DNA from: Ignavibacteriales bacterium
GTDB lineage: Bacteria; Bacteroidota; Ignavibacteria; UBA10030
Assembly: GCA_026390575.1 (NCBI GenBank)
Contig: JAPLFR010000002.1
Span: forward strand, 124,001-188,000
Direction: 5' to 3'
DNA: 64,000 nt
The notes beneath the pieces were generated by a model. It had not been told where the DNA came from. It searched no databases and saw nothing but the letters and a program-made list of their open reading frames with translations. This document shows, piece after piece, positions 8,338 through 63,975 of the stretch (positions are counted from its first letter, which is position 1; the number at the start of each line of letters is the position of its first letter). The position numbers were made by a program, and so were the translations under genes.

Positions 8338-8991
8338 TTAGAGAAGAGATCTATTCTCTATAAGGAACCGTAATAGTGCATGACTTCCATGAATGCCCAA
8401 TTTGATACAAATATTTGTACGATGATTTTCGACGGTTTTAGGACTGATGAACAGCTCTTCTGCAATCTGTTTCGTGCTTTTATTCGCTGCAATGAGTTTG
8501 ATAACTTTTCGTTCAGCTATTGTTAAGAGCTCAAGACCTTTCACCTTGTCCGAAAGTGGTGGCGGTGGACCGCTTCTCCTTATCAGGTAATGAGAGAACA
8601 TTGAACAGACATAATAGCGTCCTTCTAGTACTGTCCGTATAGCTTCTGAAATTTCTGTTATCGCATTTTCCTTACTTACGAATCCTTTTACACCAAGAGC
8701 CATTGCGCGGGAAAACAGCTCTTCCTCTTTATGCATGGTAAGAATGATGATCTCAACAGGAAATTTTTGTTTCACAACTGCCTGCGCAAATTCCAGGCCG
8801 TTCATTTTTGGCATGTCCAGATCAAGTATGACTACATCGATAGAATGATCTTTGAGAAATTCGAGTGCTGCCTCACCATTGGATACATCGCCAACGACAT
8901 GCATCTTTGGTTCGGCATCAATGAAGCTGCGCAGACCACTCCGGAATACAGGATGATCATCGACAATGAGAATATGACTAACGTTACTCAT
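8338..8991 (-). CDS. NarL/FixJ-family response regulator
   Basis: 217 residues: receiver domain 1-120 with LIVDDHPVFR, phospho-acceptor in VVILDLDMP and the Lys in VKGFVSKENA, then a LuxR-type helix-turn-helix (LLTIAERKVIKLIAANKSTKQIAEELFISPKTVENHRTNI region, residues 155-200). It is a DNA-binding transcription regulator encoded six bases after a NarX-type kinase, its probable partner. Confidence 0.93.
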   Translation of the reverse strand: MSNVSHILIVDDHPVFRSGLRSFIDAEPKMHVVGDVSNGEAALEFLKDHSIDVVILDLDMPKMNGLEFAQAVVKQKFPVEIIILTMHKEEELFSRAMALGVKGFVSKENAITEISEAIRTVLEGRYYVCSMFSHYLIRRSGPPPPLSDKVKGLELLTIAERKVIKLIAANKSTKQIAEELFISPKTVENHRTNICIKLGIHGSHALLRFLIENRSLL

Positions 8992-8997
8992 TGTACT

Positions 8998-9741
8998 CTA
9001 TCGAGGTATATCGACCACGATCATTGTTCCAGCTCCTGGAGTGGAAACACAATTCATAGTACCTTTAAGCATATTCACTCGCTCTGCTAAAACTATCTGT
9101 CCAAGTCCTTCAAACATTTTTCTCTCCGCCGTCTTTGTTACCATACCTTTGCCATTATCAGAGATGACGAGATGAATCATTGTACCGTTTTTTGTGATCT
9201 TCACATCAGCTTCTTTCGCTTGAGAATGTTTAACGATATTATTGAGAGCTTCCTGAACTAATCTGAAAAGATTAATCTCGGATTCCTTGTCAAAGATATT
9301 ATCCACTTCATCAATGTATACAGTAAAAACGATGGAAGTCATTGAAGCAATCGTTGCAACGAGATGTTTAAGCGCTTGTGTGAGTCCGAGCCGATCCAAC
9401 AAAACTGGGCGCAGGTTATGAGAAATTTTCCGTACCTCTTCCAGTGTTTGAGAAGCAAATGATGATATTTGATGTAATTGTGCAGCCATTTTAGACAGGC
9501 TTTTCTTTGATCGCAATCCTATCAGTGCATAATTCTTTATGATGAGAATATCCTGACCGATACTGTCATGTAATTCAGCCGCAATTCTCTTTCTCTCTTT
9601 TTCCTGAAGATCGATCAGCATATGCGATAATTCGTGCTCTCGTTTTCGTTCTTTTCTGATATAGTAATATTGAACAGCACTACCGATATAGAGAGCGCCT
9701 GCACTTACAAGAAGGATAATATCGAGCCACCATTTATTCAT
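8998..9741 (-). CDS. NarX/DesK-type sensor histidine kinase
   Basis: 247 residues. One N-terminal membrane segment (residues 6-26), then HisKA_3 with the H-box ERKRIAAELHDSIGQD (phospho-His near residue 58) and a HATPase_c domain with the N-box NNIVKHSQAKEADV and G-box SDNGKGM. There is no sensing domain beyond the short membrane anchor, so the input must come from the membrane or a partner. It is paired with the NarL-type regulator immediately downstream. Confidence 0.92.
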   Translation of the reverse strand: MNKWWLDIILLVSAGALYIGSAVQYYYIRKERKREHELSHMLIDLQEKERKRIAAELHDSIGQDILIIKNYALIGLRSKKSLSKMAAQLHQISSFASQTLEEVRKISHNLRPVLLDRLGLTQALKHLVATIASMTSIVFTVYIDEVDNIFDKESEINLFRLVQEALNNIVKHSQAKEADVKITKNGTMIHLVISDNGKGMVTKTAERKMFEGLGQIVLAERVNMLKGTMNCVSTPGAGTMIVVDIPR

Positions 9742-10962: not shown

Positions 10963-11046
10963 GCTGAAAGTGGGAGTTTACGCCAGCATGTCTGCCATCT
11001 TTTTGGCAGAAGGCGCATGAACCTTTCGCTCAGAATCCACGACCTG
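10963..11046 (-). repeat. tRNA-Thr 3'-half-like repeat with structured insertion (copy 2)
   Basis: Nearly the same as the copy at 2209-2288: on the minus strand the T-arm GTGGATTC is split by an insert containing the CTGCC/GGCAG hairpin nested in CGCC/GGCG, then closes with AACTCCCACTTTCAGC. It is bracketed by related inverted sequences ending ATCGGGA (10937-10956 and 11054-11072). Not a functional tRNA. Confidence 0.7.
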
Positions 11047-11078
11047 CGGTTTTTCCCGATAATTTCAATTGATTTTCT

Positions 11079-11152
11079 GAGCTGGTGGTCGGACTTAAAC
11101 CGACGACCCGCAGTTTATCCCGATCCATCGGAACTGCTCTACCACTGAGCTG
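11079..11152 (-). repeat. Degenerate tRNA-like copy with palindromic insert in the anticodon loop
   Basis: On the minus strand a D-arm identical to the nearby tRNA-Thr (GCTCAGTGGTAGAGC) is followed by an anticodon arm whose loop is replaced by CCGATGGATCGGGAT, then by a well-formed T-arm (GTCGG-TTTAAGT-CCGAC). The 5' and 3' acceptor strands do not pair, so it is unlikely to be charged. Confidence 0.65.
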
Positions 11153-11245
11153 TAGGTGGGAGTTTGCACCAGAGGCGCATGAGCCTTTGGCTCAGAACCC
11201 ACGACCTGCGGTTTATCCCGATCCATCGGAACTGCTCTACCACTG
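11153..11245 (-). repeat. Degenerate tRNA-like copy with inserts in both anticodon and T loops
   Basis: Directly downstream of the intact tRNA-Thr on the minus strand. It repeats the D-arm, carries the same CCGATGGATCGGGAT palindrome in the anticodon loop as the copy at 11079, and has a shortened form of the T-loop insert seen at 2209 and 10963 (TGAGCCAAAGGCTCA hairpin kept, inner hairpin lost). Acceptor strand sequence is fused to the next copy. Confidence 0.65.
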
Positions 11246-11317
11246 AGCTGAAGGTGGGAGTTGAACCCACGACCTGCGGTTTACGAAACCGCTGCTCTAC
11301 CACTGAGCTACTTCAGC
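11246..11317 (-). tRNA. tRNA-Thr (anticodon CGT)
   Basis: Full cloverleaf on the minus strand: acceptor GCTGAAG/CTTCAGC, D-arm GCTCAGTGGTAGAGC, anticodon stem GCGGT/ACCGC with loop TTCGTAA, so anticodon CGT decoding ACG, and T-arm GTGGG-TTCAACT-CCCAC. CCA is not encoded. It heads a run of degenerate tRNA-like copies. Confidence 0.92.
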
Positions 11318-14049: not shown

Positions 14050-14394
14050 TCAAGAAAAGTTTTGCTGAGGCGGTGTTGGAGGAATTTTTAGATTCACCTT
14101 GCGCAGAGTTTGCTCCGAGACGGTAGAACGATACAACGGATGATTTTTTACTGTAATATTATAGAGTGGAAAAGCATCTCCGTCGGGTGTTTTCTGCCAC
14201 CCGATGAAGACAGCGTCTGAATTTTCATTCTCCTGATTGTTTGAATTTTGGTTATGATTTCCGTGTTCAGAGATTTCTGAGTCCTGACTATATGGCCGCA
14301 GTCTCGCTACCCAATCCTTCACTACCTGGCGAATTTCTCTTAACGGAGATGAACTATTGCCGTCACGATGTATTTGATAACTTTTATTTTCCAT
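14050..14394 (-). CDS. Hypothetical hydrophilic protein under the shared promoter module
   Basis: 114 residues, Asn/Gln-rich in the middle (EHGNHNQNSNNQENEN), with an ordered C-terminal half (VFIGWQKTPDGDAFPLYNIT). No family is recognised. Directly upstream is a promoter module (14454-14516) whose operator overlaps the stop codon of the ECF sigma factor gene, so this gene can be driven separately from the sigma factor. Confidence 0.65.
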   Translation of the reverse strand: MENKSYQIHRDGNSSSPLREIRQVVKDWVARLRPYSQDSEISEHGNHNQNSNNQENENSDAVFIGWQKTPDGDAFPLYNITVKNHPLYRSTVSEQTLRKVNLKIPPTPPQQNFS

Positions 14395-14453
14395 AGTGAA
14401 TTATCTCTTCAATTCATTCAGAATAAACGATTTGTAACTCTCTTTATGAGAAA

Positions 14454-14516
14454 AAGCATACCAATGATTTTGATTATGAGAAATAGTTCAAAAGGATGAA
14501 AAAGGAATTAATCCCT
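14454..14516 (-). promoter_or_regulatory. Shared stress promoter module, copy 1
   Basis: Minus-strand sense: GGATTAA then CATCCTTT (operator 14490-14516), CTATT at spacing 5, and GTATGC (14456-14461) 30 bases after the operator. It drives the gene at 14050-14394 and overlaps the sigma factor stop codon at 14508-14510. Confidence 0.8.
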
Positions 14517-15137
14517 CTGCATCGTAGTATGAGATTTTATAGCGGATGCAAGAACACAGGACATTGGGTTTAGTGCGCTTGATCCCTTTTTTGCTATATA
14601 TCCATTATCTTTCGCATAATTGAAGAGTCTTTTTTGCAACATTCTTCGACCCCTGTGCAGCCTGGAACGTACGGTACCGACAGGACAAGCAACCATTCGA
14701 GCGATTTCATCATACGTGAGTTCTTCAACATCACTGAGAATGATGACTGTCTTAAAAATATGAGGCAATGCTTCAAGAGAATGCGCAATCTCATCTTCAA
14801 ACATTTCATCAGAGTGCTTTACCTTGAGATAGGTATGGTCAAACGATCCGTCATGAAATGCTTTGTAACAAAAGCGGTTTTCATCATACTCAACTTTATT
14901 CGGTTCCTTAATTTTTTTCCTGTAATTATTGATGTATGAATTTTTCATAATTTGATATAACCATGCCTTGATGTTGGTACCTTCCTCATAGTTGTTCCAG
15001 AACCGGTACGCTTTCAGATATGTATCTTGCAACAGGTCTTTCGCATTCTCAGAATTATTCGTTAGATGCATTGCATAGTTTTGTAAAAGAGTCATATGCG
15101 GTATAGCTGACTGTTCAAAACCCTGGTGATCTTCCAT
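14508..15137 (-). CDS. ECF-family RNA polymerase sigma factor
   Basis: 209 residues. Region 2 is visible at about 35-95 (KDLLQDTYLKAYRFWNNY, GTNIKAWLYQIMKNSYINNYRKK) and region 4 at about 140-185 (LPHIFKTVIILSDVEELTYDEIA, VGTVRSRLHRGRRMLQ). A 30-residue C-terminal extension follows. No anti-sigma factor with a zinc finger or membrane anchor is next to it, so it may be controlled by expression or by a distant partner. Its own upstream region carries the shared promoter module (15187-15251), which suggests it belongs to, and may amplify, the regulon. Confidence 0.93.
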   Translation of the reverse strand: MEDHQGFEQSAIPHMTLLQNYAMHLTNNSENAKDLLQDTYLKAYRFWNNYEEGTNIKAWLYQIMKNSYINNYRKKIKEPNKVEYDENRFCYKAFHDGSFDHTYLKVKHSDEMFEDEIAHSLEALPHIFKTVIILSDVEELTYDEIARMVACPVGTVRSRLHRGRRMLQKRLFNYAKDNGYIAKKGSSALNPMSCVLASAIKSHTTMQRD

Positions 15138-15186
15138 AACCTTTATCCCCTTCGTCCTTCATACAGAATAATTTTCAACTGGAAAT

Positions 15187-15251
15187 AAGTATGTTGACAA
15201 TTTGGTGAACAGGAAATACTCCAAAAGGATGAAAAAGGAATTAATTCTTTT
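15187..15251 (-). promoter_or_regulatory. Shared stress promoter module, copy 2
   Basis: Operator 15223-15251 (minus strand GAATTAA ... CATCCTTT), TATT at the intermediate position, and CATACT at 15188-15193, 31 bases after the operator. It lies 86 bases upstream of the ECF sigma factor start. Confidence 0.78.
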
Positions 15252-15286
15252 GTAAGATAGTGAGACAAGGTACGCTGGAGTAATTG

Positions 15287-15940
15287 TTAGAAAATATCTT
15301 TGTTGTTGGAATAGTTTGCAATCTGAAGACGGCTATGTAATGCCAGCTTTTCCATGACGTTATGCACATGGCTTTTCACTGTGTGGGTAGCAATATTGAG
15401 TTGCTGGGCAATTTCTTTGTTGCTCAAACCATCGGCAATCACTGCCATGATTTCACGCTCACGCTCTGTCATCCGCACTGCTGAAGGTAATTTTCCTTTT
15501 CCTTCTTTCAATGCATATTCGATAATATGTGAAAACAACGACCCGGTCAGCGACGGCGGAAGAACTTTAATTCCTTTGGAAACCGTCCGAATGGTACCCA
15601 GAAATTCCTTCACCGTTGCATCTTTCAGTATGAACCCTGAAGCACCAGCTTCGACCGACTCGATGATGTCCGTCTGCGAGGGAAGGAGGCCCATCCCGAT
15701 CACTTTTAACTCGGGAAAATCTCTCTTCACTCCTTCCAGTACACTCCGCTGTTTATCGCTCCATAAACCTAAGTCCAAAAGTTGAATATGAGGATTTACT
15801 TCGCGTAGAGTCTTCAGAACATTAGTACCGCTTCCAATAGCAGCCACGACTCTCATATCTGGCTGTTTATTGAGCAGGGCTACAAGACCGTCTCGTAAAA
15901 CGCGGTTATCTTCAACAACGAGTATTCTAATTTTTTTCAT
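15287..15940 (-). CDS. NarL-family response regulator, paralogue A
   Basis: 217 residues from the ATG at 15940. The frame extends to 15979, but that extension runs over a 25-bp palindrome, and the paralogue at 18724-19377 starts at the same MKKIRIL. The receiver has VVEDNRVLRDG, phospho-acceptor in LLDLGLWSDK (an unusual context lacking the normal MP pair) and Lys in GFILKDAT. The LuxR helix-turn-helix is at about 150-200 (MTEREREIMAVIADGLSNKEIA). By eye it is around 80% identical to paralogue B on the other side of kaiB-kaiC. No kinase is adjacent. Confidence 0.92.
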   Translation of the reverse strand: MKKIRILVVEDNRVLRDGLVALLNKQPDMRVVAAIGSGTNVLKTLREVNPHIQLLDLGLWSDKQRSVLEGVKRDFPELKVIGMGLLPSQTDIIESVEAGASGFILKDATVKEFLGTIRTVSKGIKVLPPSLTGSLFSHIIEYALKEGKGKLPSAVRMTEREREIMAVIADGLSNKEIAQQLNIATHTVKSHVHNVMEKLALHSRLQIANYSNNKDIF

Positions 15941-15960
15941 TGATGAGTTTGTTATTCCCG

Positions 15961-15985
15961 TCCCGATTGATATAATCAATCGGGA
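15961..15985. repeat. 25-bp palindrome (TCCCGAT family)
   Basis: Perfect 11-bp arms TCCCGATTGAT/ATCAATCGGGA with a 3-base centre. It has the same TCCCGAT..ATCGGGA ends as palindromes at 25388-25416 and 61154-61173 and as the insert in the tRNA-like copies, so a dispersed short-palindrome family is likely. Confidence 0.75.
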
Positions 15986-16156
15986 TGTTCAAAACACAAA
16001 ATCGGCAGGAATGACAGTCCCCTTATTCCATGCTTGCATAACAGCTGTTAATCGTAATGGTTATCTGTTTAATTCGATAATGATCTCACAATCTTAAGCA
16101 CCATATTTTCATGCGGAGATAGTTAAAAACAGAATCGCAAGGTTCAGAGAACACTC

Positions 16157-16285
16157 TTACTGTTGTATGTTGAGTCCTTGGTTCTTGATTTCATTTTTCT
16201 TCTCTCTTTTAGCTGCTTTTTTTTCCTGCATTGTTTTCGCCGGCGCTTTTTTAGAACTTTTTTTACTGCTTTGACCTTTACTCAT
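16157..16285 (-). CDS. Small lysine-rich protein
   Basis: 42 residues beginning MSKGQSSKKSSKKAPAK, followed by an alternating Lys/Glu helix (QEKKAAKREKKNEIK). A strong ribosome site, AGGAGAAG, lies 4-11 bases before the ATG. It is highly basic and probably disordered or nucleic-acid binding. It follows kaiB by 57 bases and is probably the last gene of the kaiC-kaiB transcript. The family is not recognised. Confidence 0.7.
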   Translation of the reverse strand: MSKGQSSKKSSKKAPAKTMQEKKAAKREKKNEIKNQGLNIQQ

Positions 16286-16342
16286 GATCTTCTCCTGTTG
16301 TTGTTTTTGGGGATTTTGATTCTTATCCGCTGCTGCGAATTT

Positions 16343-16699
16343 TTACTTATTCAACATGACGCTATGCTCTACGAGGTCCAATCCCACCAACACACGTTCT
16401 GTATTAGATAGATCGCCAATGATGTTCCGCATTGGTAAGGGTAATTTACGTACTAACGTTGGGATGGCAAGGATTTGATTATCACGGGCGAGCTGCGGCT
16501 TCTTCAGAAGGTCTATCACTTCTAATTGGTATTTACCCTTTAATTGTTCATCACAAATTAATTTGAGATTGTTAAAAGCAATGACGCATTTAGGAGTCTG
16601 CCCGGCAATGTATAAACGTAAGATCCATTTTTCGCTTTTTACTTTGGCTGGCTTTTTTTTCCACCGGCTGGTTTTTGATTTTTCCTGTTTGTTTTTCAT
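16343..16699 (-). CDS. kaiB: KaiB-family protein
   Basis: 118 residues. After a 24-residue Lys-rich tail, residues 25-115 match the thioredoxin-like KaiB fold ([52 protein letters not shown] with the conserved cis-Pro region). In cyanobacteria KaiB switches fold and binds KaiC; in non-photosynthetic bacteria KaiB/KaiC pairs are linked to stress tolerance. It lies 11 bases after kaiC. No KaiA is present. Confidence 0.93.
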
Positions 16700-16710
16700 T
16701 GTACGTTCCT

Positions 16711-18456
16711 TTAAACTTTCATTTTATTCTTGTTTGTACCGGCTATTTTTAGTGAAACATCGCCTTTACGACTCTTCGCCATTTTTGCCTTGTCCTGAGT
16801 TAAACGATCACCTCTTGCTTTTTCAATGCCAATAACTTTGAGCGCTTCTAATTCTTCACCTTCGAATTCAGATCGAAGCAAATTAATCTGTGCTTCCATT
16901 GCTTCACGCTTACGCTCTATTCCAATTTGTTTGCGTACGATTTCCTGCTGATGCAATAATTGTTCCGCATCGTCTTGCGACTCTTGTGATAATCGTGCCG
17001 AACCGGTCAACACACCGCCCGGACCAACATAGACATCAAGCAGTTCGATACCGTGGTTTGTCAATTTAAATTCACGAATCTGATTGGAATGCTCCATACC
17101 ACGGGATTTCAGCACATACAATCCTCTGTTACGTTCTCCCCCAATTTCAATATCACGTAGAAGCAGCCATGTATCTATCAAGGATGAGATGTAAACATCA
17201 GTAATCTCAAAATTTTCACCGGCTGAATTGAGACTTGTGAAAAATGCTGTGATCCGTTTCATCTTCAGAAAATCTACGAGTCGCAGGAGCATTGTTTTGA
17301 CCTCAACGTGGTTCTCACCCGTCACAAATGCATTAATCGGATCGAGGATAACGACTTGAGGGCTAAAGTTGTTGATAAGTTTAATACTTGTCGTCAGGTG
17401 AGTTTCCAGGCCATAGTGTGTCGGGCGTGTTGCATGAAACTGGAGCAACCCCTTCTTCACCCATAGTTCTAAATTTATTCCAATGGAACGCATATTGCGC
17501 ACAAGCTGATTTGGAGATTCTTCGAATGTAAAATAGAGAACGCGTTCTCCCCTCTTGCATGCCTCTTCAACAAATTTCGCTGCAATGCTCGTCTTGCCTG
17601 TACCGGCGGTGCCTGAAACAAGCACTGTGCTGCCGCGGAAGTACCCTTTCCCGGAAAGCATGGTGTCGAGACGCGGAATACCGGTGGAGATTCTTCCGTT
17701 GGATGAAGAGTAATTCAACCCCAGGGAAGTGACAGGCAAAACGGAAAAGCCGTCTTCATCTATAAGAAAGGGATACTCGTTCGTACCATGCGTTGAACCG
17801 CGATATTTAACAACACGCAGCCGCCGTATGGATGATTGATCGGTCACGCGATGATCGAGCAGAATGACACAATCGGATACGTACTCTTCCAAACCCTGAC
17901 GCGTTAAGGTACCATCGCCCCGCTCAGCAGTAATGATTGTTGTGACACCTTTCCTTTTCAGCCATCGGAATAGCCGGCGCAGTTCAGCACGCAGGATCAG
18001 AGGGCTTGGCAATTCTGAAAAGAGCGACTCGACCGTATCCAGTACAACTCGCTTAGCGCCGACACTCTCAATTGCATGATGGATCCTGATAAACAAACCT
18101 TCCAAATCGTATTCACCGCTTTGTTCGACTTCATTTCGTTCAATGTGAACATGCTCAAGCCAAATCTTTTTACGCTTTACAAGGTCGTCCAAATCGAATC
18201 CCAACGAAGCAACATTTGCCGTAAGTTCTTGCTCTGTTTCCTCGAACGAAATAAAGACGCCTGGTTCATTATACTGTATTGCTCCGCGGACGAGAAACTC
18301 CATGGCAAAAAGGGTTTTCCCGCAACCTGCGCCACCGCACACAAGCGTCGGCCTGCCTTTTGGCAATCCCCCGCCCGTGATTTCATCTAATCCCTGAATA
18401 CTTGTGGGAGCTTTCGGAAGGGTTTTACGTTGAGATGCTGCTTCTTTTTTCTTCAT
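16711..18456 (-). CDS. kaiC: KaiC-family double-domain ATPase
   Basis: 581 residues with two RecA-like KaiC domains. CI has Walker A GGAGCGKT at 41-48 and catalytic FEE at 71-73; CII has GTAGTGKT at 282-289 and FEE at 311-313. At the position of the cyanobacterial phosphorylation pair Ser431/Thr432 there is Ser424-Ser425 (VYISSLIDT), so autophosphorylation is possible. A C-terminal charged coiled-coil tail (490-581) replaces the KaiA-binding tail of cyanobacteria. A double promoter module at 18556-18635 precedes it, and NarL-type paralogues flank the kaiC-kaiB unit. Confidence 0.94.
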
Positions 18457-18555
18457 GATATTTTCTCCATACGGTCAGTATTGTTTCGCTTACGAGTTCA
18501 AAATCAACCATTTCTCTTAAAAAGAGAGTTTTGTACTTTGCCGCTACATTTCATC

Positions 18556-18635
18556 AAATTATAGAATATTCTTTTCGACAAAACACTAATCCAAAAGGAT
18601 GAAAAAAGGATTAATCCAAAAGGATTAATCCTTTT
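18556..18635 (-). promoter_or_regulatory. Shared stress promoter module, copy 3 (with extra palindrome)
   Basis: Operator 18593-18617 plus an adjoining perfect 18-bp palindrome, AAAAGGATTAATCCTTTT, at 18618-18635, giving a tandem site. The promoter-like CTATAAT is at 18558-18564, 30 bases from the operator. It lies upstream of kaiC. Confidence 0.82.
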
Positions 18636-18723
18636 AGGGCAGAAACCGTCCTTCAATGAGAGTGGAAGGATACTGTGACAAGAGTTTTGGGGAAATTACT
18701 TAAGCGAGGGAGAATGTATAGAA

Positions 18724-19377
18724 CTAGTTTGTCGTTTCGTCGCGGGTATACTTTGCTATCTGCAAGCGGCTATGTAATGCCAACTTTTCCATGATGTTAT
18801 GAACATGGCTTTTCACTGTATGGGTAGCGATGTTGAGCTGCTGGGCAATTTCTTTGTTGCTCATGCCGTCGGCAATCACTGCAATGATTTCACGTTCACG
18901 CTTCGTCATCTGTATTGCAGCGGTTAAGGTTTTCTTCCCTTTTTTAATCGCATGCTCGACCACATGGGAAAAAAGTGAATTGGCCATTAGCGGCGGAAGA
19001 ACTTTTATTCCCTTGGAAACAGATCGGATGGTGCCAATAAATTCATTGACTGTCGCATCTTTCAGTATGAACCCTGAAGCACCAGCCTCGACTGATTCAA
19101 TGATGTCTGTCTGCGACGGAACGAGGCCCATCCCGATCACTTTTAACTCGGGAAAATCTTTCTTCACTGCTTCCATTATGCTCCGATGTTTTTCGCTCCA
19201 TAAACCCAGGTCTAAAAGTTTAATATGAGGTTTTACTTCACGTATAGTCTTGAGAACATTATTCCCGCTTCCGATAGCAGCCACAACTTTCATATCCGGC
19301 TGTTTATTGAGCAAGGCAATAAGTCCATCTCGTAAAACGCGATTATCTTCAACGAGGAGTATTCTGATCTTTTTCAT
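18724..19377 (-). CDS. NarL-family response regulator, paralogue B
   Basis: 217 residues, colinear with paralogue A (15287-15940) with no gaps. The receiver pocket is LLVEDNRVLRDG, phospho-acceptor in LLDLGLWSEK, Lys in GFILKDAT, and the recognition helix ATHTVKSHVHNIMEKLALHSR is the same except for one conservative change, so both probably bind the same DNA site. It sits upstream of the kaiC promoter region. An extremely AT-rich stretch (about 19430-19490) precedes it and may act as an UP-type promoter element. Confidence 0.92.
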   Translation of the reverse strand: MKKIRILLVEDNRVLRDGLIALLNKQPDMKVVAAIGSGNNVLKTIREVKPHIKLLDLGLWSEKHRSIMEAVKKDFPELKVIGMGLVPSQTDIIESVEAGASGFILKDATVNEFIGTIRSVSKGIKVLPPLMANSLFSHVVEHAIKKGKKTLTAAIQMTKREREIIAVIADGMSNKEIAQQLNIATHTVKSHVHNIMEKLALHSRLQIAKYTRDETTN

Positions 19378-19681: not shown

Positions 19682-20608
19682 TTATTTCCGCAACGACGAT
19701 AATTGCTTGAATAATTCAATTTCTCGTTCACTCAGATGGTCGGGAAGTTGTATTACAACAGTCACATACATGTTTCCGAATTCGTTCTTCGTGCCATAGA
19801 CCGGCATTCCAAGCCCCAGAAGTCTTAGCACTTTGCCGTTGTGTGTTTCCCTGGTAATATCTACATCGACTGTTCCTTTGATTGTTTTGATCCGTGCCTT
19901 GCCGCCGAGCATGGCGGTGTATAATTCGACCGGTCTATCGCAGTAGAGATCATTTCCCCGGCGCTGAAATTCTGCATGCGGTGCAACTCTGATTGTGATG
20001 TATAGATCTCCATTCGGGCCTCCGTTTGACCCGCGGCCGCCCTTGCCTGCTACTCTCAATACTTGCCCGTCTGCAATACCCGGCTTCATTGTTATCTTGA
20101 TTGTCTGATCATGAATCTTCAGGAGCCGTTCCGAACCATGGTAGGCTTCTTCAAGCGTAAGCGTTGTTTCGGCTTCAAAGTCCTCTCCTTTGCTTGCCCT
20201 GCTCCTTCTCCCGCCCTTTCCTCCGCTCTGCTGCCCAAAAATAGATTCGAAGATGTTCCCAAGACCCTCTTCGCCGAACATCGCACTGAACTCTTCTTGA
20301 CTCATGGTATGTTCTCGTCCGCCGCGGCCGCCCGTGTACTTCGACCAATCGAATCCTCCCGGCTGTTGTCCGGCTTCTTCGTATTGTTTCCAATCCGCTC
20401 CAAACTGATCATACTTTTTCCGTTTCACAGGATCGCTGAGAATTCCATTTGCTTCGTTTATATCTTTAAATTTTTCCTCTGCGGCTTTGTCTCCCTTGGT
20501 CTTGTCGGGATGATATTTGTTGGCAAGCTTGCGATATGCCTTCTTGATTTCATCCTGAGTCGCCGTCTTTCCAACACCCAATATTTTGTAGTAATCTTTA
20601 TATGTCAT
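19682..20608 (-). CDS. cbpA: CbpA-type DnaJ co-chaperone
   Basis: 308 residues: J-domain 1-70 with the HPD motif at 33-35, a Gly-rich linker ([14 protein letters not shown] ... GGKGGRRSR), then two DnaJ C-terminal substrate-binding domains. The four zinc-finger repeats of DnaJ are absent, hence the CbpA (type II) assignment. It stimulates DnaK ATPase and delivers substrates. It follows grpE, but dnaK is not in the window, so this is an accessory heat-shock set. It is the last gene of a likely four-gene operon starting at 23352. Confidence 0.93.
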
Positions 20609-23352: not shown

Positions 23353-23994
23353 TTCATTTCTCCTTGTTTAATATCTTATACAACACATTTATTCAAGCGG
23401 CAATTCGTTTACGGTGGCCTGAAAAATATAACATAATCATTATCTATGGCTCTTCAAGACGAACACCCACGATATTTTAATTATACCAATGAATGGATTG
23501 TGAAGTAATAGACCGAAAGGATGGAAAAGGAGTTAATCCTTTTTCGAAGAGTCTGAATTAAATCTGGCACATAAATGTAAGGTGTTATTAGGTTGCACCG
23601 GGTTTTTAAGAATTCGCTATCAACACGATCTTTAACGAGGTTGGTATTCTCGAAATGATTTGCATAATCTCATCTTTAGGGCACACGCCTGAAGCAATGA
23701 GTTCGATAACTATTCTGATTCCTCCACACTATACGTTCCACTGATTCTTACTTTTCCCGAATTTTTATCTTTGCCTTCGGAGAATACCAAACTCCTTTTA
23801 TAATTGGTAACTGCCTAACGATTGTGATAAGCTGCAGCAACCTGAGCTGTTCGATAAACGGTATTCATTGAAATAATGAGGTTCATCGCATGAACATATA
23901 TATGTTTTTTCCAACGAGAATATTTTATTTCCTCAGGTTATAGCTCAAACAATAATCTTGTTGCTGTCACGTTTTCGATGCGAGCATTCGATCA
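23353..23994. other. Intergenic region carrying only the promoter module
   Basis: 642 bases. Apart from the promoter module at 23479-23545 I see no gene, RNA or obvious repeat; the part from 23546 to 23994 looks like decayed non-coding sequence downstream of the gene at 23995-25203. Confidence 0.5.
23479..23545 (-). promoter_or_regulatory. Shared stress promoter module, copy 4
   Basis: Operator 23515-23544 (GGATTAACTCC ... CATCCTTT on the minus strand), CTATT at spacing 5, GTATAATT at 23479-23486 exactly 30 bases away. Drives the oxidoreductase-grpE-cbpA operon. Confidence 0.8.
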
Positions 23995-25203
23995 TTAAAA
24001 CGAAAAACCTACCTGCGCAACTAATAACAATCGCCCCTTTTTTTGAATAGGTAAAAACGGTGCCAACTCCAGGCCAATGTTAATTTTTTTTGTAAAACCG
24101 ATATTGACTATTCGTACCATTTCCGCCAAATCCAAAAACATCGACAACGCAAAACCTCCTCGACCGGTTCCAACATCAACCGGTGAATTCACTCCAAACA
24201 TTCCTATCCCCATGCTGACAGGAAATCGATTTCCTGTCCCTGGATCAATATAATAGAACCGCACCATTGCGCTGTAGTTACCATATTGAATCGTATCATT
24301 GGCTCGTGTATCGTACAACACTTTGGGAATGGCGAGTGAAAATCCTAATTCGATTCTTGGGCCTCTCACCCGAAAATATTGTGTCATACTATTGGAACGA
24401 TCCACTGCGCCGATTTTAATGGAGTAATCGGGTTCGATATGGACGCCAAGAATTGCCCAGTCAGGCAGTGAATCTACCGGCACTAATACTTTTTCAAGTT
24501 CTTCGGAACGGATATTGGCAAACGCGCCGTAAGCGGCACGGTACTGAATAAACATTGCGCGATCTTTGTAGGGATCGCCATGACTTCTATATGTTACTAC
24601 GCGTCGTTCGTACGATGGAGCCGCTATGCCGTCTCGCAACAGTATTGTTGTTGTTATTCTCACAAACTGTGGCCCCATGTCAAGCCGAATGCTGTCGCGT
24701 TGAAACCGCACCATGAGATTTCGAACTTGCTCACGATCCAGTGTAACTGCCGTCCGGATATTATTGCTGCCGGCATCGGGTATCACGCTGACGTATCTAT
24801 TGAGTTGTTCGACGTCTTGGTGTTCTTCCACGGTGACAACGCATGCCGTTTCATACCGAAATCGCCGCCCCCCGGCGTCCGTTACTCTAAGGCTGACGGG
24901 ATATGATCCCGGTGTTACAGCTTGAGGAATAAAAGCAATGTACCTGCGTCGCCCAATTGATTTGAACGTTGTTCCTTCGATAAGAAGTATCGGAGTAATG
25001 ATTCCCGCTGTCGAAGTATCGTTTCGTTGAATTGCCAGAATAACCGTGTCACCCGGAAAGTAGATCGACTTGTCGACAGAGATATTAACACTCTCATCCT
25101 CGAGCGTAGACTGAATGAGTACCGTAGTCCTCAACTGTGCTTGAGCACTGAGTATTCCGATAACACAAAGCAGAATACATTTAGCGAATTTTGTTTTCAA
25201 CAT
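23995..25203 (-). CDS. Exported protein, probable outer-membrane beta-rich protein
   Basis: 402 residues from the ATG at 25203. The frame opens at 25266, but that would overlap the promoter module, and 25203 gives a good signal peptide (MLKTKFAKCILLCVIGILSAQAQ). An Ig-like first domain (SIYFPGDTVILAIQR, YPVSLRVTDAGGRRF) is followed by a middle domain and a beta-strand-rich C-terminus ending in VGFSF, typical of outer-membrane barrels with terminal Phe. The family is not recognised. It is preceded by its own stress promoter module. Confidence 0.7.
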   Translation of the reverse strand: MLKTKFAKCILLCVIGILSAQAQLRTTVLIQSTLEDESVNISVDKSIYFPGDTVILAIQRNDTSTAGIITPILLIEGTTFKSIGRRRYIAFIPQAVTPGSYPVSLRVTDAGGRRFRYETACVVTVEEHQDVEQLNRYVSVIPDAGSNNIRTAVTLDREQVRNLMVRFQRDSIRLDMGPQFVRITTTILLRDGIAAPSYERRVVTYRSHGDPYKDRAMFIQYRAAYGAFANIRSEELEKVLVPVDSLPDWAILGVHIEPDYSIKIGAVDRSNSMTQYFRVRGPRIELGFSLAIPKVLYDTRANDTIQYGNYSAMVRFYYIDPGTGNRFPVSMGIGMFGVNSPVDVGTGRGGFALSMFLDLAEMVRIVNIGFTKKINIGLELAPFLPIQKKGRLLLVAQVGFSF

Positions 25204-25236
25204 ATCGTCTCTTTCGCGATCAATATGATTGCTTCC

Positions 25237-25301
25237 TATAGTACAAAGAACTGTAAGACACAACAATCAGCCGAAAGGATGAAAGAGTAGTTAATCCTTT
25301 T
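25237..25301 (-). promoter_or_regulatory. Shared stress promoter module, copy 5
   Basis: Operator 25273-25301 (GGATTAACTACTC ... CATCCTTT), intermediate GATT, and GTACTAT at 25238-25244, 30 bases after the operator. It forces the choice of the downstream start at 25203 for the following gene. Confidence 0.75.
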
Positions 25302-25387
25302 ATGGAGAGCGTAAATATTTTTCGGCATTACGAAAGGATCAGATACCACACGTTCTACTTGTTGCGTAAGGCCCATAGCGACCCCTC

Positions 25388-28562: not shown

Positions 28563-29825
28563 TTACTGAACATAGAATTCCATGCGCCGATTCTGTGCTC
28601 GACCCTCTTCCGTCTTGTTATCGGCAACAGGTTCTTTTTCACCTTTCCCGACAGTTCTCATGCGGTTCGATGCAATGCCTTTTTTGACGAGCCAGTTCTT
28701 TACTGCCTGCGCCCGCTTCAATGAGAGTGTCTGATTAAATTTGTCACTTCCCACATTGTCCGTATGCCCGGTAATTACTACTCGCGCATCAGGATTCGCG
28801 ATCATCGCGCGATATGCCCGCCATAGTATTGTCTCAGAATATTGCGTGAGTGTCGCTTTATTGAACTCAAAATTGACACCTTTCAGAACGACGGTCTTAC
28901 CTTTAATAAGTACGAAAACGGTATCGGTCTCCTTTTGTACTACCACTTGCACTGGCCGTGGTGCTGCTTTGGCCATGTCTTTCAATCGTTGTGCCTCTGC
29001 CGCCGTCTTGATCGAATCCTGTATACGCTGTGCCTCGGCAGCTTCCCGCACACGTCGTGCCTCGGCAGCGGCAGCTTCCTGTACACGTTTTGCTTCGGCA
29101 GCGTTCGCTTCCTTTACACGTTTTGCTTCGGCAGCGTTTGCTTCCTGTACACGCCGTGCCTCAGCAGCGGCTAACTCTTCGTTTCTTATACGGCTTGCTT
29201 CTTTCTCTGCCGCCTTATTATCAGGACCAAAAATAGTACAGCTTACTCCTGCAAAGAGTCCCCACCATGCATCATTTCCAGAACCAATTTTAGAATTTGG
29301 AACCCAAGTGGAAACAATGGTATTGGTGAATGCATAATTAAAATTCGTATTGACATCAAACTGCAGCCAATCATTCACTGCATACTCTGCTCCAAGAGTA
29401 ATCGGCACATATCCTGCATAACCATTCTTTTCAACATTGGGATTGCGAAGTGTCACATTTGCAAAGTAGTATGTAATACCCAATCCGGCACCGAGATAAG
29501 GGTGCAATTGATCGTCATAAAACGAGTACGGTGAATAGAGAGCTTGATATTCGACGCCCCACATATCTGTTTGATAGTATTGTCCTTTAATACCGCCATA
29601 CATACCGGAAAGTTCACCATCAAAGTCGCCTGAAATATTATGTCGAAGGTAAAGTTTTCCTGTGGGATCAAGTGCATTGTCAGTCATCTTTGTCAATCCC
29701 TGCATAGATCCAGCTGCAATCCCAAACCGAACCCCTCTATCCTTAAATTGCCCGAATACTTGGGCTGAAAAGAGTGTTACCATAATCAATATGGCCGCAC
29801 CGAAAATGTAAATATTTTTTTTCAT
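28563..29825 (-). CDS. OmpA-family outer-membrane protein
   Basis: 420 residues: signal peptide 1-25, an eight-strand-type N-terminal barrel to about 205 (PYLGAGLGITYYFANVTL), a helical linker of five to six 11-residue repeats based on AAEAKRVQEAN (about 215-290), then a peptidoglycan-binding OmpA domain (GVNFEFNKATLT, TGHTDNVGSDKFNQTLSLKRA, EEGRAQNRRMEF). It anchors the outer membrane to the wall. AGGAG precedes the ATG by seven bases. The promoter module is 303 bases upstream of the start, the longest such distance here. Confidence 0.93.
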   Translation of the reverse strand: MKKNIYIFGAAILIMVTLFSAQVFGQFKDRGVRFGIAAGSMQGLTKMTDNALDPTGKLYLRHNISGDFDGELSGMYGGIKGQYYQTDMWGVEYQALYSPYSFYDDQLHPYLGAGLGITYYFANVTLRNPNVEKNGYAGYVPITLGAEYAVNDWLQFDVNTNFNYAFTNTIVSTWVPNSKIGSGNDAWWGLFAGVSCTIFGPDNKAAEKEASRIRNEELAAAEARRVQEANAAEAKRVKEANAAEAKRVQEAAAAEARRVREAAEAQRIQDSIKTAAEAQRLKDMAKAAPRPVQVVVQKETDTVFVLIKGKTVVLKGVNFEFNKATLTQYSETILWRAYRAMIANPDARVVITGHTDNVGSDKFNQTLSLKRAQAVKNWLVKKGIASNRMRTVGKGEKEPVADNKTEEGRAQNRRMEFYVQ

Positions 29826-30601
29826 TTGTATCTCCTATAATTAGTGTGTTTTTATAAATACATCGGTTGTTTTGATACATCAAATGCATTCACCTGCAAT
29901 ACAAATCCCTCACTATCCGATTGTCAGTTGAAGATTGCATCAAAGAGATCCAGAGAACTAAAATTGAGGTTAGGAAGATTCTTTGACCCTGTGCCGATAC
30001 TCTACTGAGAATCTCGAGTGAACCGGGATTGATCTTCAATATAATTGTCGGAATGTTCCATTTATTTTCTTTCCACAAACTTTCGTTCCCATGACAATTA
30101 CAGGGTTGCTTCTTCCATACCGCAACAAATCATACTCATGATTTAAGAAACTAGAAATAGACCAAAAGGATGAAAAAGGGGTTAATCCTTTTATCTGATA
30201 GGAAGTGTCCTTCTAAGAAATTCCGGAGCAGGCGAGCCGTGTATTCATTGGTCATTCAAGATATTGGCAAGACAGTGGAAGACCATAATTCAAATCAATT
30301 ATTTAACACTACGGCAAAAAGGCGGTAAAAGGACTAACGAGAAATGTGAATACTATCTGAAAAGTGAAGTACCCATGATGTGCAACCATCCCGAATTCTT
30401 TGTTGCATATCGGAATTTTTGTCAAATGTCTGCTTGTAAGTAGGATTTGGGATACTGATACGGTAACAAGCAACTTGTTTATGGTAACTTGTAACCGATT
30501 ATTTTCCATCGATCACTCAGAGTTGTTTTATCAAACATAAAAATAACTCGTAACTTGCTATTCCTAAAATAAAATTTAGATGTTTAATAGATCCTCAGAC
30601 T
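29826..30601. other. Long leader and intergenic region
   Basis: 776 bases. It holds the promoter module at 30128-30192, leaving an untranslated leader of about 300 bases for the OmpA-like gene. Reading frames inside are short and lack ribosome sites except one of 19 codons at about 30060. Near 30420-30560 there are repeated ACTTGTA/GTAACTTG words but no clear structure. Confidence 0.5.
30128..30192 (-). promoter_or_regulatory. Shared stress promoter module, copy 6
   Basis: Operator 30164-30192 (GGATTAACCCC ... CATCCTTT), CTATT at spacing 5, GTATGATTT at 30127-30135 exactly 30 bases away. It drives the OmpA-like gene pair. Confidence 0.8.
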
Positions 30602-31000: not shown

Positions 31001-31990
31001 TCATTGTATCGTCTTACCGATAATTTGTGTAGGTGGTACATTAAATTTTTCTCCGTGTTGTTCAAGCCACTCCAGCATGGCACGCACGCTGCCCGTGGCT
31101 AGAGCAATGTTCGAATCCGCTACTCCGTAATATAAACGAAGCGTGTCGCCATCAGAAGCAATAGTGTATCCGCACGGAAAAACTACGTCATCCACATCGC
31201 CGCGCCGTTCGTAGGATTCCTCCGGACCGAACATCCATTCGTTGCTGCGTTTTAAGCAGTACTCCGGTGTGTTTAAATCAAACAGTGCAAGTCCTAACCG
31301 GTAAATAGAGCCGGACGCTGTCTGCCGTACGCCGTGATAAATCACCAGCCATCCTTGCGGTGTTTCGATTGGCGGGGGTGAAAGGCCTATTTTGTTTGCA
31401 TCCCACCACGCACCCTTCCGGGCTACCAGCATCAGTTTGTGATTTCCCCAAAACCGAAGATCGGGAGAATACGATACCCACATGTGAGCGCCCTGAGCGC
31501 TTACCGGGCGATGGATTAACACCCAACGACCGTCGATACGACGAGGCAGTAGAGCCGCGTCCTTATCATCCGGCTGCATGATCAATCCGTAACGCTCGAA
31601 AGAATCAAAATGTTCTGTGAGCGCCAGGGCTACACCGGGACCATCACGCGTATAAGCGGTATAGACGACAGCATACTTTTTTAATTCGGGAACATACGTT
31701 ATGCGCGGATCCTCAATACCCCAGAGTTCTTCAGGGAAGTGTTCAGGATCTGGCATCAAAGTCGGATGGGAGTCAATCTGCCAGTTATCTACACCGTTGG
31801 CAGAGCGGGCAGCACAGAGATGTGAATGTCCGCGCCGATCCTCCACCCGGCATAAGAGCAAGGTGGTTCCATCCGCCAGCATTGTTGCGCCGGGATTAAA
31901 CACGCTATTGATGGGATACGGCCAATTGGCAGCAGTCAATATTGGATTAAGCTTATAACGGAAAAAGATTTCCGGATGTCGGTTGTTCAT
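31001..31990 (-). CDS. GH130-family glycoside phosphorylase or hydrolase
   Basis: 329-residue five-bladed propeller enzyme. Family features include NSVFNPGATMLADGTTLLLCRVEDRRG, the catalytic Asp region WGIEDPRITYV, and the late FPCGYTIASDGDTLRLYYGVADSNIALATG segment. GH130 enzymes act on beta-mannosides, usually by reversible phosphorolysis. It overlaps the stop/start of a GT4-type glycosyltransferase by 4 bases, so the two are translationally coupled and likely handle the same mannose-containing glycan. Exact linkage is not predictable. Confidence 0.92.
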   Translation of the reverse strand: MNNRHPEIFFRYKLNPILTAANWPYPINSVFNPGATMLADGTTLLLCRVEDRRGHSHLCAARSANGVDNWQIDSHPTLMPDPEHFPEELWGIEDPRITYVPELKKYAVVYTAYTRDGPGVALALTEHFDSFERYGLIMQPDDKDAALLPRRIDGRWVLIHRPVSAQGAHMWVSYSPDLRFWGNHKLMLVARKGAWWDANKIGLSPPPIETPQGWLVIYHGVRQTASGSIYRLGLALFDLNTPEYCLKRSNEWMFGPEESYERRGDVDDVVFPCGYTIASDGDTLRLYYGVADSNIALATGSVRAMLEWLEQHGEKFNVPPTQIIGKTIQ

Positions 31991-34721: not shown

Positions 34722-34814
34722 GTATCTTGTTCCATTCTTCCTAAAAGATTCATATAAGCCGTTCAATGATCATTCTTTGAGGTTCAATTCATTTTCTGCA
34801 GCGATAGACAAACA

Positions 34815-34878
34815 CAATACACCTATAATTACATCAAATGGTAATAGCCCAAAAGTATGATAAAGTACTTAATCCCTT
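34815..34878 (-). promoter_or_regulatory. Shared stress promoter module, copy 7
   Basis: Operator 34851-34878 (GGATTAAGTAC ... CATACTTT, one substitution in the CATCCTTT arm), CTATT at spacing 5, GTGTAT at 34817-34822, 30 bases away. It is the most divergent arm, and it stands in front of the interrupted csbD gene, as if both were decaying. Confidence 0.72.
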
Positions 34879-34914
34879 ACGAAAGAAGGTTGATGAGCCT
34901 GCAACGCACTATTC

Positions 34915-37834: not shown

Positions 37835-37913
37835 AGACAGTATCCTTTCTTTTATAAAAATGAATCCGTCAAGAGTGGAGAGGATGTCAGTACCCTCTTC
37901 TGAAATTCACAGG

Positions 37914-37979
37914 TAGCATACAGATATTTTTTTGAAACAGTAATCGCTCGAAAGGATGAAAGAGTAGTTAATTCTTTTT
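37914..37979 (-). promoter_or_regulatory. Shared stress promoter module, copy 8
   Basis: Operator 37950-37979 (GAATTAACTAC ... CATCCTTT), intermediate GATT, GTATGC at 37916-37921, 30 bases away. It drives the lmo0937-type and DUF3185 genes. Confidence 0.8.
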
Positions 37980-38526: not shown

Positions 38527-38563
38527 ATGTTTCCTTTTTCTATGTTATTATTAATTACAGAAC

Positions 38564-38627
38564 AAATGTAGACGTTGAAAAAAAAGAATTCAATCGAGCA
38601 AAGGGATGAAAAAGTAATTAATCCTTT
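38564..38627 (-). promoter_or_regulatory. Shared stress promoter module, copy 9
   Basis: Operator 38599-38627 (GGATTAATTAC ... CATCCCTTT), intermediate GATT, CTACAT at 38566-38571, 29 bases away. It lies upstream of the universal stress protein gene. Confidence 0.75.
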
Positions 38628-38786
38628 ATAGTGGAAACATACCGACAGAATGAATATCTTTCAGCTGTCTGTTCACCTCGGTGAAATCATACCCTTTTTA
38701 TAGCCTGAACAAATTTGCATCTAGCCCTTTTTGTTCGCAGCCGTGTCCAAGCTTTATGAAGCACATCATGCGTGCCTCTCTATGAG

Positions 38787-43601: not shown

Positions 43602-44092
43602 TTTAGTCCATTCTTTCGTTATTACCCCGCGACGCAAGAGCGTCCGAGGCTATTATTTTTTATATTTTGATCTGTTACACTTGTGGTCTATCGGTGTCTT
43701 ACGGTAAGACACAACGAACGATTGAGTTCTCTTTTTTCCTCCATGATTCGCCAAAGCCTTCAATTATTTTTACGAAATAATTGACTCCTATGTCTGCAAG
43801 CATACCGATGATTTTGTCAAACGGAAATAGCTCGAAAGGATGATAAAGTAGTTAATTCTTTTTCGGGAGGCGGCCGCACAACGTTCTCTTTCGGAGAGGC
43901 ATTCAAGTTAGACTAGCAATTGTCAAGTTACTTTCTAAAACGTGGCAAGCAAGAAATACCCAAGAGTACCGCAGTGTTATTTTACAAAGCACTCTTTCAT
44001 TTAGTTCACAATTATCTTTTAAACATCGTAAGGACATTCCTTAGATTATTTTCGTCATTATTTGGGATTGTTAACGATGATGCCGCATACGA
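43602..44092. other. Intergenic region with promoter module
   Basis: 491 bases between the receiver-kinase gene and the hydrolase gene. It holds the promoter module at 43799-43862. I see no small gene or RNA in the remainder. Confidence 0.5.
43799..43862 (-). promoter_or_regulatory. Shared stress promoter module, copy 10
   Basis: Operator 43834-43862 (GAATTAACTAC ... CATCCTTT), CTATT at spacing 5, GTATGCTT at 43798-43805 exactly 30 bases away. It agrees with the consensus at all three blocks. Confidence 0.82.
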
Positions 44093-45244: not shown

Positions 45245-45256
45245 AAGATTATGCAA

Positions 45257-45660
45257 TTAATTTTAATTTATTTTATTAACCGGGTCTTAGTGTGGAGAGA
45301 AATTGTTCCTTTGCATTAAGCATGTTAACCTGCTATTGTTTTGTTTTATCGGATATAGCTCGAAAGGATGATAAAGTAGTTAATCCTTTCTGAAGGAGTA
45401 TATATGCTCTTTTCATAGAGAGTTTTAGATTAGCGTTTTCCGGGATAACTTAACGAAGAAATGCAGCAGATTAATAAAAGGTCCGGCTAACTCACGGGTC
45501 TCAAGTATCTCAATTATTTGTTAATGCTTCATCATTATCGGGATGCACGTCCTGCGTGATCGTACTGTCCATTAATAGTTATCCTATTGCACTTTTACCC
45601 GAGCGGAGCGAACCAGAAATTTCAGCGAAGTCAATCGTGATTTGTGTGTGATTATCGTGT
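45257..45660. other. Intergenic region with operator copy 11
   Basis: 404 bases. Apart from the operator at 45362-45390 it contains a partial TCGGGAT word near 45540 but no supported gene or RNA. Confidence 0.5.
45362..45390 (-). promoter_or_regulatory. Shared stress promoter operator, copy 11 (no clear second block)
   Basis: GGATTAACTAC ... CATCCTTT with CTATA at the intermediate position. At the usual 30-base distance the sequence is GCAGGT rather than GTATNNT; a TTAACAT lies four bases further on. It is 118 bases upstream of the receiver-kinase start. Confidence 0.7.
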
Positions 45661-60897: not shown

Positions 60898-60986
60898 TCG
60901 ATTACCCTTTCATATCACGAATGAATAAAAAGTTGACTATCTCACTAACCAGGTACCATGACTCATAAAACAAATAACATTGTAAT

Positions 60987-61050
60987 AAAGATACTACTTC
61001 AATGATGAAACGTAATCGTCCAAAGGGATGAAAAAGGAATTAACCCTTTG
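60987..61050 (-). promoter_or_regulatory. Shared stress promoter module, copy 12
   Basis: Operator 61022-61050 (GGGTTAATTCC ... CATCCCTTT), intermediate GATT, GTATCTTTA ending at 60994, 29 bases away. Upstream of the gene at 60463-60897. Confidence 0.77.
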
Positions 61051-61089
61051 GGGTTAGCTGACGCACAGCTAACCGATAACTGCAAGCAG

Positions 61090-62275: not shown

Positions 62276-62429
62276 AAAATTCTCCTGTAATTAATAAAAG
62301 AAAAATAGTTTTGTTTGCTTTCCACTAGGCTTTGTTTGATTATACACCTTCCTTTCGTATAAATTTTTCGTCCAGATTGTCAAATCCGGCACTTCGAGAA
62401 GAGTATTATTTCTCTGCTGAATGTGATAG

Positions 62430-62494
62430 AGATATACTCATAATTTCATAAGAAGGTAATAGGTCTAAAGGATGAAAAAGGGACTAATCCTTTA
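62430..62494 (-). promoter_or_regulatory. Shared stress promoter module, copy 13
   Basis: Operator 62466-62494 (GGATTAGTCCC ... CATCCTTT), CTATT at spacing 5, GTATAT at 62432-62437, 30 bases away. It drives copy B of the ice-binding-like gene, 191 bases downstream. Confidence 0.8.
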
Positions 62495-62538
62495 GTTGTT
62501 AGCGGATACATCACAAAACGATAATAGCAAACATAAAG

Positions 62539-63764: not shown

Positions 63765-63909
63765 ATAATCTCCATGTGTTTAATTAAAAATGAAAAAGTA
63801 AGTTAACTATTCATTTGACTTTGTTTGTCCTTCCATTCAATCCCAGCTCACTGCGTAATTTCCTTTCCGGCATTTCGAGAAGTGAAATAGTACCTGCTGA
63901 ACGTGATAC

Positions 63910-63975
63910 AGATATACCGATAATTTCTTAGGGAGGGAATAGCTCTAAAGGATGAAAAAGTAATTAACCCCTTGA
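63910..63975 (-). promoter_or_regulatory. Shared stress promoter module, copy 14
   Basis: Operator 63946-63975 (GGGTTAATTAC ... CATCCTTT), CTATT at spacing 5, GTATATCT at 63910-63917, 30 bases away. It drives copy A of the ice-binding-like gene, 182 bases downstream. Confidence 0.8.

Follow-up and report, generated by a model that had tools for sequence, protein, structure and literature searches.

A 64,000-nucleotide stretch of an Ignavibacteriales bacterium (assembly GCA_026390575.1, contig JAPLFR010000002.1, positions 124,001 to 188,000; hereafter the window) carries 14 copies of a conserved promoter-like element, hereafter the module, in which an inverted repeat lies upstream of a second block. 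We propose, with a probability of about 0.8, that the module is a sigma70-type promoter in need of an activator, that its reader is a subfamily of NarL/FixJ-type response regulators, here represented by two paralogues, NarL1 and NarL2, and that the extracytoplasmic function (ECF) sigma factor and the receiver-kinase encoded in the same window are among its targets. An earlier note on this DNA had left the NarL pair, the ECF factor and the kinase side by side as candidate readers. Comparisons across genomes strongly support the NarL-type protein over the other two, which narrows three open candidate regulators to a single pair open to testing, together with its protein family and predicted binding site, in uncultured lineages.

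Anatomy of the module

All 14 modules of the window lie on the same (minus) strand, and every copy precedes an open reading frame (ORF). With up to three mismatches allowed, the core pattern matches seven times in the window as against none in 100 shuffles. A wider pattern finds 22 matches in the whole 3.8-Mb genome, 14 of them within the window, whereas the reversed pattern finds none, either there or across 98 genomes of the order. With few exceptions, the inferred leaders behind the modules measure 32 to 155 nt; some modules are followed first by a short ORF, the larger gene then lying 294-531 nt off. The regulon looks island-like, given the concentration of the own-genome matches on one strand of the window and a comparable cluster in Stygiobacter (G109), whose 13 modules all fall inside one 32-kb stretch.

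In reading direction, the 38-base core is AAAAGGATTAAyyCCTTTTTCATCCTTTnGGnC(T/G)ATT, with a TAnnnT hexamer 21 bases further on. When this hexamer is taken as -12 to -7, relative to inferred start sites, the central TA of the operator stands at -62/-61 within AAAGGAT-TA-AnnCCTT, a third half-site, ATCCTTT, occupies -49 to -43, and a TT falls at -35/-34; the predicted operator stretches include AAAGGATTA and ATCCTTT. We profiled 59 modules from loci L093-L151, which were chosen by the operator-core matrix alone and from which copies of the first set were dropped. These show T-12 at 0.75, A-11 at 0.82 and T-7 at 0.87 in the -10 region, and T 0.97, T 0.87, G 0.64 and A 0.49 in the -35 region. The 85 modules from the order differ at the third -35 position, where C (0.36) and A (0.31) take the place of G. 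Where a -10 hexamer is recognisable, the spacing from core to -10 is exactly 21 in 53 of 71 modules of the order and in 23 of 44 of a wider set described below. This predicted anatomy is that of a sigma70-type promoter, TT(G)-N17-TAnnnT, preceded at a fixed distance by an operator whose dyad lies near -61.5.

Class I activator-dependent promoters have the activator dyad near -61.5; if the inferred start sites are right, the position of the central TA and the fixed spacing to the -10 hexamer may reflect such a layout. We envisage that a dimer of the NarL subfamily would bind the inverted repeat AAAGGAT-TA-ATCCTTT, whose centre lies some 61.5 bp before the start, that the third half-site, one helical turn downstream, would adjoin the -35 region, and that the bound regulator would recruit RNA polymerase to otherwise weak promoters, presumably activating rather than repressing them.

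Co-occurrence of the module with candidate readers

We scored the 98 genomes of the order for the module with a sequence-only model at E ≤ 1e-3 and for NarL by subfamily score, compiling the co-occurrence tables by hand from the search results. In one search the subfamily set itself apart by score, its members reaching at least 146 bits, short gene pieces aside, and the next matches at most 118.5. The NarL subfamily is present in 44 genomes and the module in 45: both in 42, the module only in three, NarL only in two and neither in 51 (p 1.3e-21; further counts are given in this order). By genus, the counts are 27/0/2/26. Nine genera (g3, g9, g21, g22, g24, g25, g26, g27 and g31) hold both genomes with the two together and genomes with neither, two others (g15 and g19) have one genome each with NarL and without a model match, and the observed within-genus concordance of 61/66 was reached in only 2 of 20,000 shuffles in which NarL was permuted within genera. 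As 32 of the genomes later scanned had supplied training copies for the module model (R1), the comparison was repeated with held-out genomes and with the own-genome pattern. The 66 genomes outside the training gave 11/2/2/51 (p 5e-9). Requiring at least three matches to the own-genome pattern selects 24 genomes, 23 with NarL and one without (p 2.4e-9), and requiring at least one yields 28/5/16/49 (p 1.9e-8), the five without NarL being G030, G037, G038, G042 and G052. Three genomes with a best E of about 0.005 (G053, G064 and G077) were scored as module-negative; counting them as positive gives 42/6/2/48 (p 1.3e-18).

The two other candidates behave differently. The ECF family, assessed in 61 genomes, is nearly ubiquitous (60 at E ≤ 1e-15, 53 at E < 1e-50) and independent of the module (25/1/28/7, p 0.12). 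Receiver-kinase matches at E ≤ 1e-60 across the 98 genomes are likewise uncorrelated with it (22/23/30/23, p 0.54), and homologues of at least 49% identity occur in seven genomes, the source genome included, of which five are module-free. Thus, of the genes tested, the NarL type alone goes nearly everywhere the module goes, making it the most likely reader, whereas the ECF factor and the kinase are best viewed as regulon members by position.

The earlier note had rightly placed a module upstream of both the ECF and the kinase gene, in the former case a full copy. A master role for the ECF factor, exerted through the second block, gains from this arrangement and from the recurrence of sigma factors behind modules (Sigma70_r2 in 6 of the 107 downstream proteins considered below). 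However, the note's suggestion that a sigma factor fits the second block holds for a sigma70-type factor and not for an ECF factor: ECF factors prefer other promoter motifs, and a block that reads as a sigma70-type promoter does not need one. Together with the independence of the family from the module and the case of G048, which has modules but only a weak ECF match (36% identity), this makes an ECF master regulator very improbable; the comparison took the ECF paralogues together, and a module-specific clade may exist among them. The kinase could in principle be the central regulator of the modules or feed a signal to them, which the copy in front of its own gene, with a poor hexamer, CAGGTT, at the -10 position, would fit; the distribution of the kinase renders this, if anything, slightly less probable still.

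KaiC (E ≤ 1e-100) is confined to 24 of the 98 genomes, all of them NarL-positive and thus a subset of the NarL set. It is found in 24 of the 45 module genomes, and the other 21, some of them fragmented assemblies, have no match at this threshold. We accordingly rejected KaiC as an obligate partner and the module as a Kai clock output.

Adjacency of NarL genes and modules beyond the order

A scan of a species-genome collection with the NarL alignment, taken to its best 80 matches and not as a census, yielded 79 loci, 63 belonging to the subfamily (at least 43% identity) and 16 to distant NarL-type regulators (at most 36%); the counts of subfamily and distant loci below refer to these matches. 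The titles of the wider set span Ignavibacteria, Zixibacteriota, Latescibacterota, Krumholzibacteriia, Calditrichaeota, KSB1, Chitinivibrionia, Balneolales, a deltaproteobacterium and Gemmatimonadota. In flanks of up to 4 kb, a module scoring above 14 bits accompanies 46 of the 49 subfamily loci outside Gemmatimonadota, at least six of which (L089, L090, L091, L092, L101 and L151) also fed the matrix. None was found at the 16 distant loci, in the 49 loci after block-shuffling or reversal of their sequence, or in a genome-wide model scan of the genomes of five distant NarL controls. The ten loci titled to other phyla, Gemmatimonadota excluded, all have a module (24-45 bits), in eight within 160 nt behind NarL. 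A same-strand module lies within 300 nt 3' of NarL for 36 of 45 genes in the order and at 30 of the 49 loci. Seven NarL-positive genomes have a single module, and in the four examined (G014, G035, G051 and G054) it stands beside NarL.

Such linkage also lends itself to another explanation, in which the module has as its reader some other DNA-binding protein encoded near NarL, itself a mere bystander on the island. The frequent clustering of modules with NarL, as in the window, would fit this, and the co-occurrence comparison was confined to NarL, ECF, the kinase and KaiC. Yet the neighbours of NarL vary between lineages: in three of the single-module genomes the next gene encodes, respectively, a CsbD-like protein (G035), an unmatched 81-residue ORF (G014) and a sub-threshold B12-binding match (G054). 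Further, modules also occur on other contigs, and KaiC, another linked gene, has a match in 24 of the 45 module genomes. We therefore consider a linked reader other than NarL unlikely, if somewhat less so than a role for the ECF factor or the kinase.

Exceptions to the association

Several observations weigh against the NarL subfamily as the reader. The module occurs without it at E ≤ 1e-3 in G025 (four copies), G030 (three) and G092 (two), where a search for a subfamily gene or piece returned only matches of 24-31% identity; intact-looking modules are found at L168 and L169 (G025), L086 and L171 (G030), and on contigs C61 and C49 of G092. Genomes with many modules and no NarL gene, which the earlier note would have taken as decisive if the ECF factor were lacking too, have a weak counterpart in these three, with two to four copies as against a median of eight in NarL-positive genomes. 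Assembly gaps, or loss and decay, are our guesses for their origin. Conversely, NarL is present without a module in G066 (best model E 0.012) and in G019, which has no model match at E ≤ 1 and where nothing resembles a module beyond a weak site of 14.6 matrix bits, 138 nt behind NarL; the flanks of L096, L115 and L143 hold no module. Among the ten genomes from other phyla, the model reports the module in eight at E ≤ 0.01 and in six at E ≤ 1e-3, with one to four copies; it gives the NarL-adjacent sites E values of only 0.012 in G101 and 0.19 in G102, and many distant copies match poorly in the left half-site. Moreover, module and NarL often sit close together, and an island gained or lost as a whole could make the two seem more strongly associated than they are.

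A further departure is seen in Gemmatimonadota, where one of 14 subfamily loci (L107, L117, L123, L125, L127, L128, L131, L132, L134, L136, L138, L140, L148 and L149) has a module, and a weak one at that, and two of nine genomes have one weak match, though the helix-turn-helix (HTH) regions look alike. We looked for a Gemmatimonadota version of the operator and discarded it, as 13 of the 14 loci have no matrix-recognised module; GGACTAG-like stretches in some of them may represent a diverged operator.

A NarL subfamily with an altered receiver

NarL1 and NarL2 share 173 of 217 residues, and 50 of 60 in the HTH region. As the earlier note had noticed, the recognition helices of this pair, which flanks kaiC-kaiB, are nearly identical, with a single V/I difference in the 17 residues compared in and around them. 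At L119 (583-1215), the recognition helix is altered to VRRHVHD from VKSHVHN, and in the module copy at 513 the third half-site is also deviant; this is one case. Both proteins of the window consist of a receiver (PF00072, 1.5e-12 in each) followed by a GerE HTH domain (PF00196, 2.2e-20 and 2.7e-20). The window encodes another NarL-type regulator beside a HisKA_3 kinase (8338-9741), which falls outside the subfamily.

The receivers of the subfamily keep the acidic pocket, the phospho-accepting Asp (60 of 63) and the Lys (61 of 63). At the Thr/Ser switch column, however, the 63 members have D in 46, G in 14, Y in one, N in one and a gap in one; that is, none of the 62 readable members has Thr or Ser, as against T in all seven distant NarL controls. 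The subfamily therefore falls outside the canonical response regulators, which have all five active-site residues including Thr/Ser. One published definition counts as atypical, with a pseudo-receiver, any response regulator that has lost one or more of these five conserved residues (PMC12632262), which places the subfamily in that class. The same account states that pseudo-receivers keeping the Asp may serve as less efficient response regulators, and describes a constitutively active pseudo-receiver regulator with positive autoregulation (PMC12632262). With the switch residue lost and the rest of the active site kept, activation would probably not proceed by ordinary phosphorylation. No conserved kinase was noticed beside NarL in 12 loci, as judged by ORF ends and a scan of part of the ORFs. 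The altered receiver offers a natural case of response regulators working without the usual switch residue.

An obligate heterodimer of the two paralogues was considered and seems not to be needed: 18 of the 44 NarL-positive genomes, in draft assemblies, have a single subfamily match (E ≤ 1e-38), and five of these have 10-16 modules. One of the five, G004, has 72 residues of another NarL copy beside its kaiC module (L072 14942-15213; G004:C64:106994-107209), a fragment that looks like a decayed or interrupted paralogue.

Regulon content and autoregulation

We collected 107 proteins encoded directly behind modules (at least 80 residues, at most 330 nt from the inferred start, with duplicates, Gemmatimonadota loci and X-containing sequences dropped). 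Their Pfam matches, drawn from 25 of 53 families and counted without a control set, so that they are not enrichments, include CsbD-like (13), Response_reg (8), KaiC (7), GerE (7), B12-binding (7), Sigma70_r2 (6), Radical_SAM (5), ice-binding (2), AI-2E transporter (2) and LysE (2). In the window, the targets comprise a universal stress protein, two ice-binding-like proteins, an OmpA-domain protein and a run from an old yellow enzyme (OYE) gene to grpE and dnaJ. From gene names alone, we infer a stress-type regulon, which would take in CsbD-like proteins, kaiC-kaiB, the universal stress protein, ice-binding proteins, the ECF factor and the kinase; the last two would extend the network further. 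With a long site and a fixed geometry, such a regulon can be read directly from genome sequence in tens of genomes.

The earlier note held that the regulon includes its own regulators. By position this applies directly to the ECF factor and the kinase, and only indirectly to the NarL pair, which has no modules of its own: NarL1 sits behind module-kaiC-kaiB and NarL2 behind module-OYE-ADH-grpE-dnaJ, while the gaps before the two genes hold no module (best matrix scores -16.9 and -26.2). Their autoregulation would therefore need read-through. Direct autoregulation was not seen in the order, none of the 45 NarL genes examined having a module within 300 nt upstream; at 7 of the 49 loci outside Gemmatimonadota, a module does lie within 300 nt before NarL.

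Features of the window

The features bearing on the regulon are collected in Table 1. The kaiC promoter had been singled out as having the strongest, doubled operator. It is doubled, with GGATTAATCC at 18608-18617 and again at 18622-18631; it is not the strongest, however, as its matrix score is the lowest of the 14 modules (36.5 versus 46.3-55.2 bits, and 32.3 versus 44.2-57.0 in a second scoring). The best NCBIfam match of the ECF factor is SigH_actino, at 150 bits under a model cut-off of 251.55. A dnaJ gene also precedes NarL in L070, L071 and L074.

Table 1. Modules and associated genes in the window (window coordinates)
Feature	Position	Strand	Remarks
Module before 114-residue ORF 14050-14394	14452..14519	-	Overlaps 3' end of ECF gene; ORF has no Pfam match at E ≤ 1e-3
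ECF sigma factor	14508-15137	-	Sigma70_r2 4.6e-14, Sigma70_r4_2 1.1e-13; regulon member by position
Module before ECF gene (operator, -35/-10 region)	15185..15252	-	Inferred start ~44 nt before ATG
NarL1, NarL-type response regulator	15287..15940	-	Pseudo-receiver without Thr/Ser switch
kaiB	16343..16699	-	PF07689 3e-26
kaiC	16711..18456	-	NCBIfam PRK09302, 742 bits
kaiC promoter module	18555..18639	-	Doubled GGATTAATCC palindrome, TATAAT -10
NarL2, paralogue of NarL1	18724..19377	-	With NarL1, best-supported candidate reader
dnaJ-type gene upstream of NarL2	19682..20608	-	
Module before OYE-ADH-grpE-dnaJ-NarL2 gene run	23477..23544	-	
Module at 5' end of ORF 23995-25266	25235..25302	-	Mechanical TTG start (25265) inside module; ATG further down
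Module before 62-residue ORF and OmpA-domain gene 28563-29825	30126..30193	-	
Module before 83-residue ORF	34813..34880	-	Glycosyltransferase 31987-34278 follows 531 nt on
Module before ORFs 37685-37834 and 37180-37614	37912..37979	-	
Module before universal stress protein gene 38083-38526	38562..38629	-	
Module before alpha/beta hydrolase gene 42780-43637	43796..43863	-	
Receiver + HisKA + HATPase kinase	44093-45256	-	Regulon member by position
Module before receiver-histidine kinase	45324..45391	-	Poor -10 hexamer
Module before ORF 60463-60897	60984..61051	-	
Module before ice-binding-like protein gene 61199-62275	62428..62495	-	
Module before second ice-binding-like protein gene 62661-63764	63908..63975	-	

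The pair of ice-binding-like genes (61199-63975) looks tandemly duplicated, module promoters included. Elsewhere in the window, ORF 51324-52937 contains 11 copies of a repeat in 63-nt steps (52047-52976), and intergenic repeated stretches at 2213-2291 and 10968-11283 include a piece that is tRNA-like by sequence look only (GGAACTGCTCTACCACTGAGCT).

Comparison with known systems

The literature covered here, as titles and abstract beginnings that mostly exclude subscription papers and preprints, makes no mention of the module or of this NarL subfamily. We would give equal weight for and against the fuller picture of an undescribed stress regulon that extends across Ignavibacteria into Zixibacteria, Calditrichota, KSB1 and Latescibacterota, under a switch-swapped (Asp/Gly) NarL-type family that acts without ordinary phosphorylation and, in some lineages, drives kaiC-kaiB, the ECF factor and itself.

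Like NarL, VraR, DevR and DesR, the subfamily couples a receiver to a GerE domain, its closest solved sequences being VraR (5hev, 1.7e-40) and NarL (1a04, 5.2e-40); unlike these regulators, almost every member has Asp or Gly where the receiver Thr/Ser would stand. NarL1 and NarL2 fall below the equivalog cut-offs of the NCBIfam models listed, the best being PRK10651 NarL with 125 of 250 bits. NarL binds a 7-2-7 site, which the inverted heptamers of the module, 2 bp apart, resemble.

A study of noncyanobacterial Kai proteins reports that some Bacteroidetes encode only KaiB2/KaiC2-like proteins, and its main text has no mention of 'luxr' (PMC5520375). The kaiC-kaiB pair of the window is like these systems outside cyanobacteria, here under a module; it differs in that Kai is optional, as the incidence of KaiC among module genomes indicates.

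BldM and WhiI, too, are NarL-type. In Streptomyces, they are orphan atypical response regulators with many target genes, BldM acting as a homodimer or as a BldM-WhiI heterodimer (PMC4125116). As there, an atypical regulator here is predicted to govern many genes, and the BldM-WhiI heterodimer is a possible model for NarL1 and NarL2. The regulons described for BldM and WhiI are developmental, whereas the present system often has a single subfamily member per genome, a fixed promoter geometry and targets with stress-type names.

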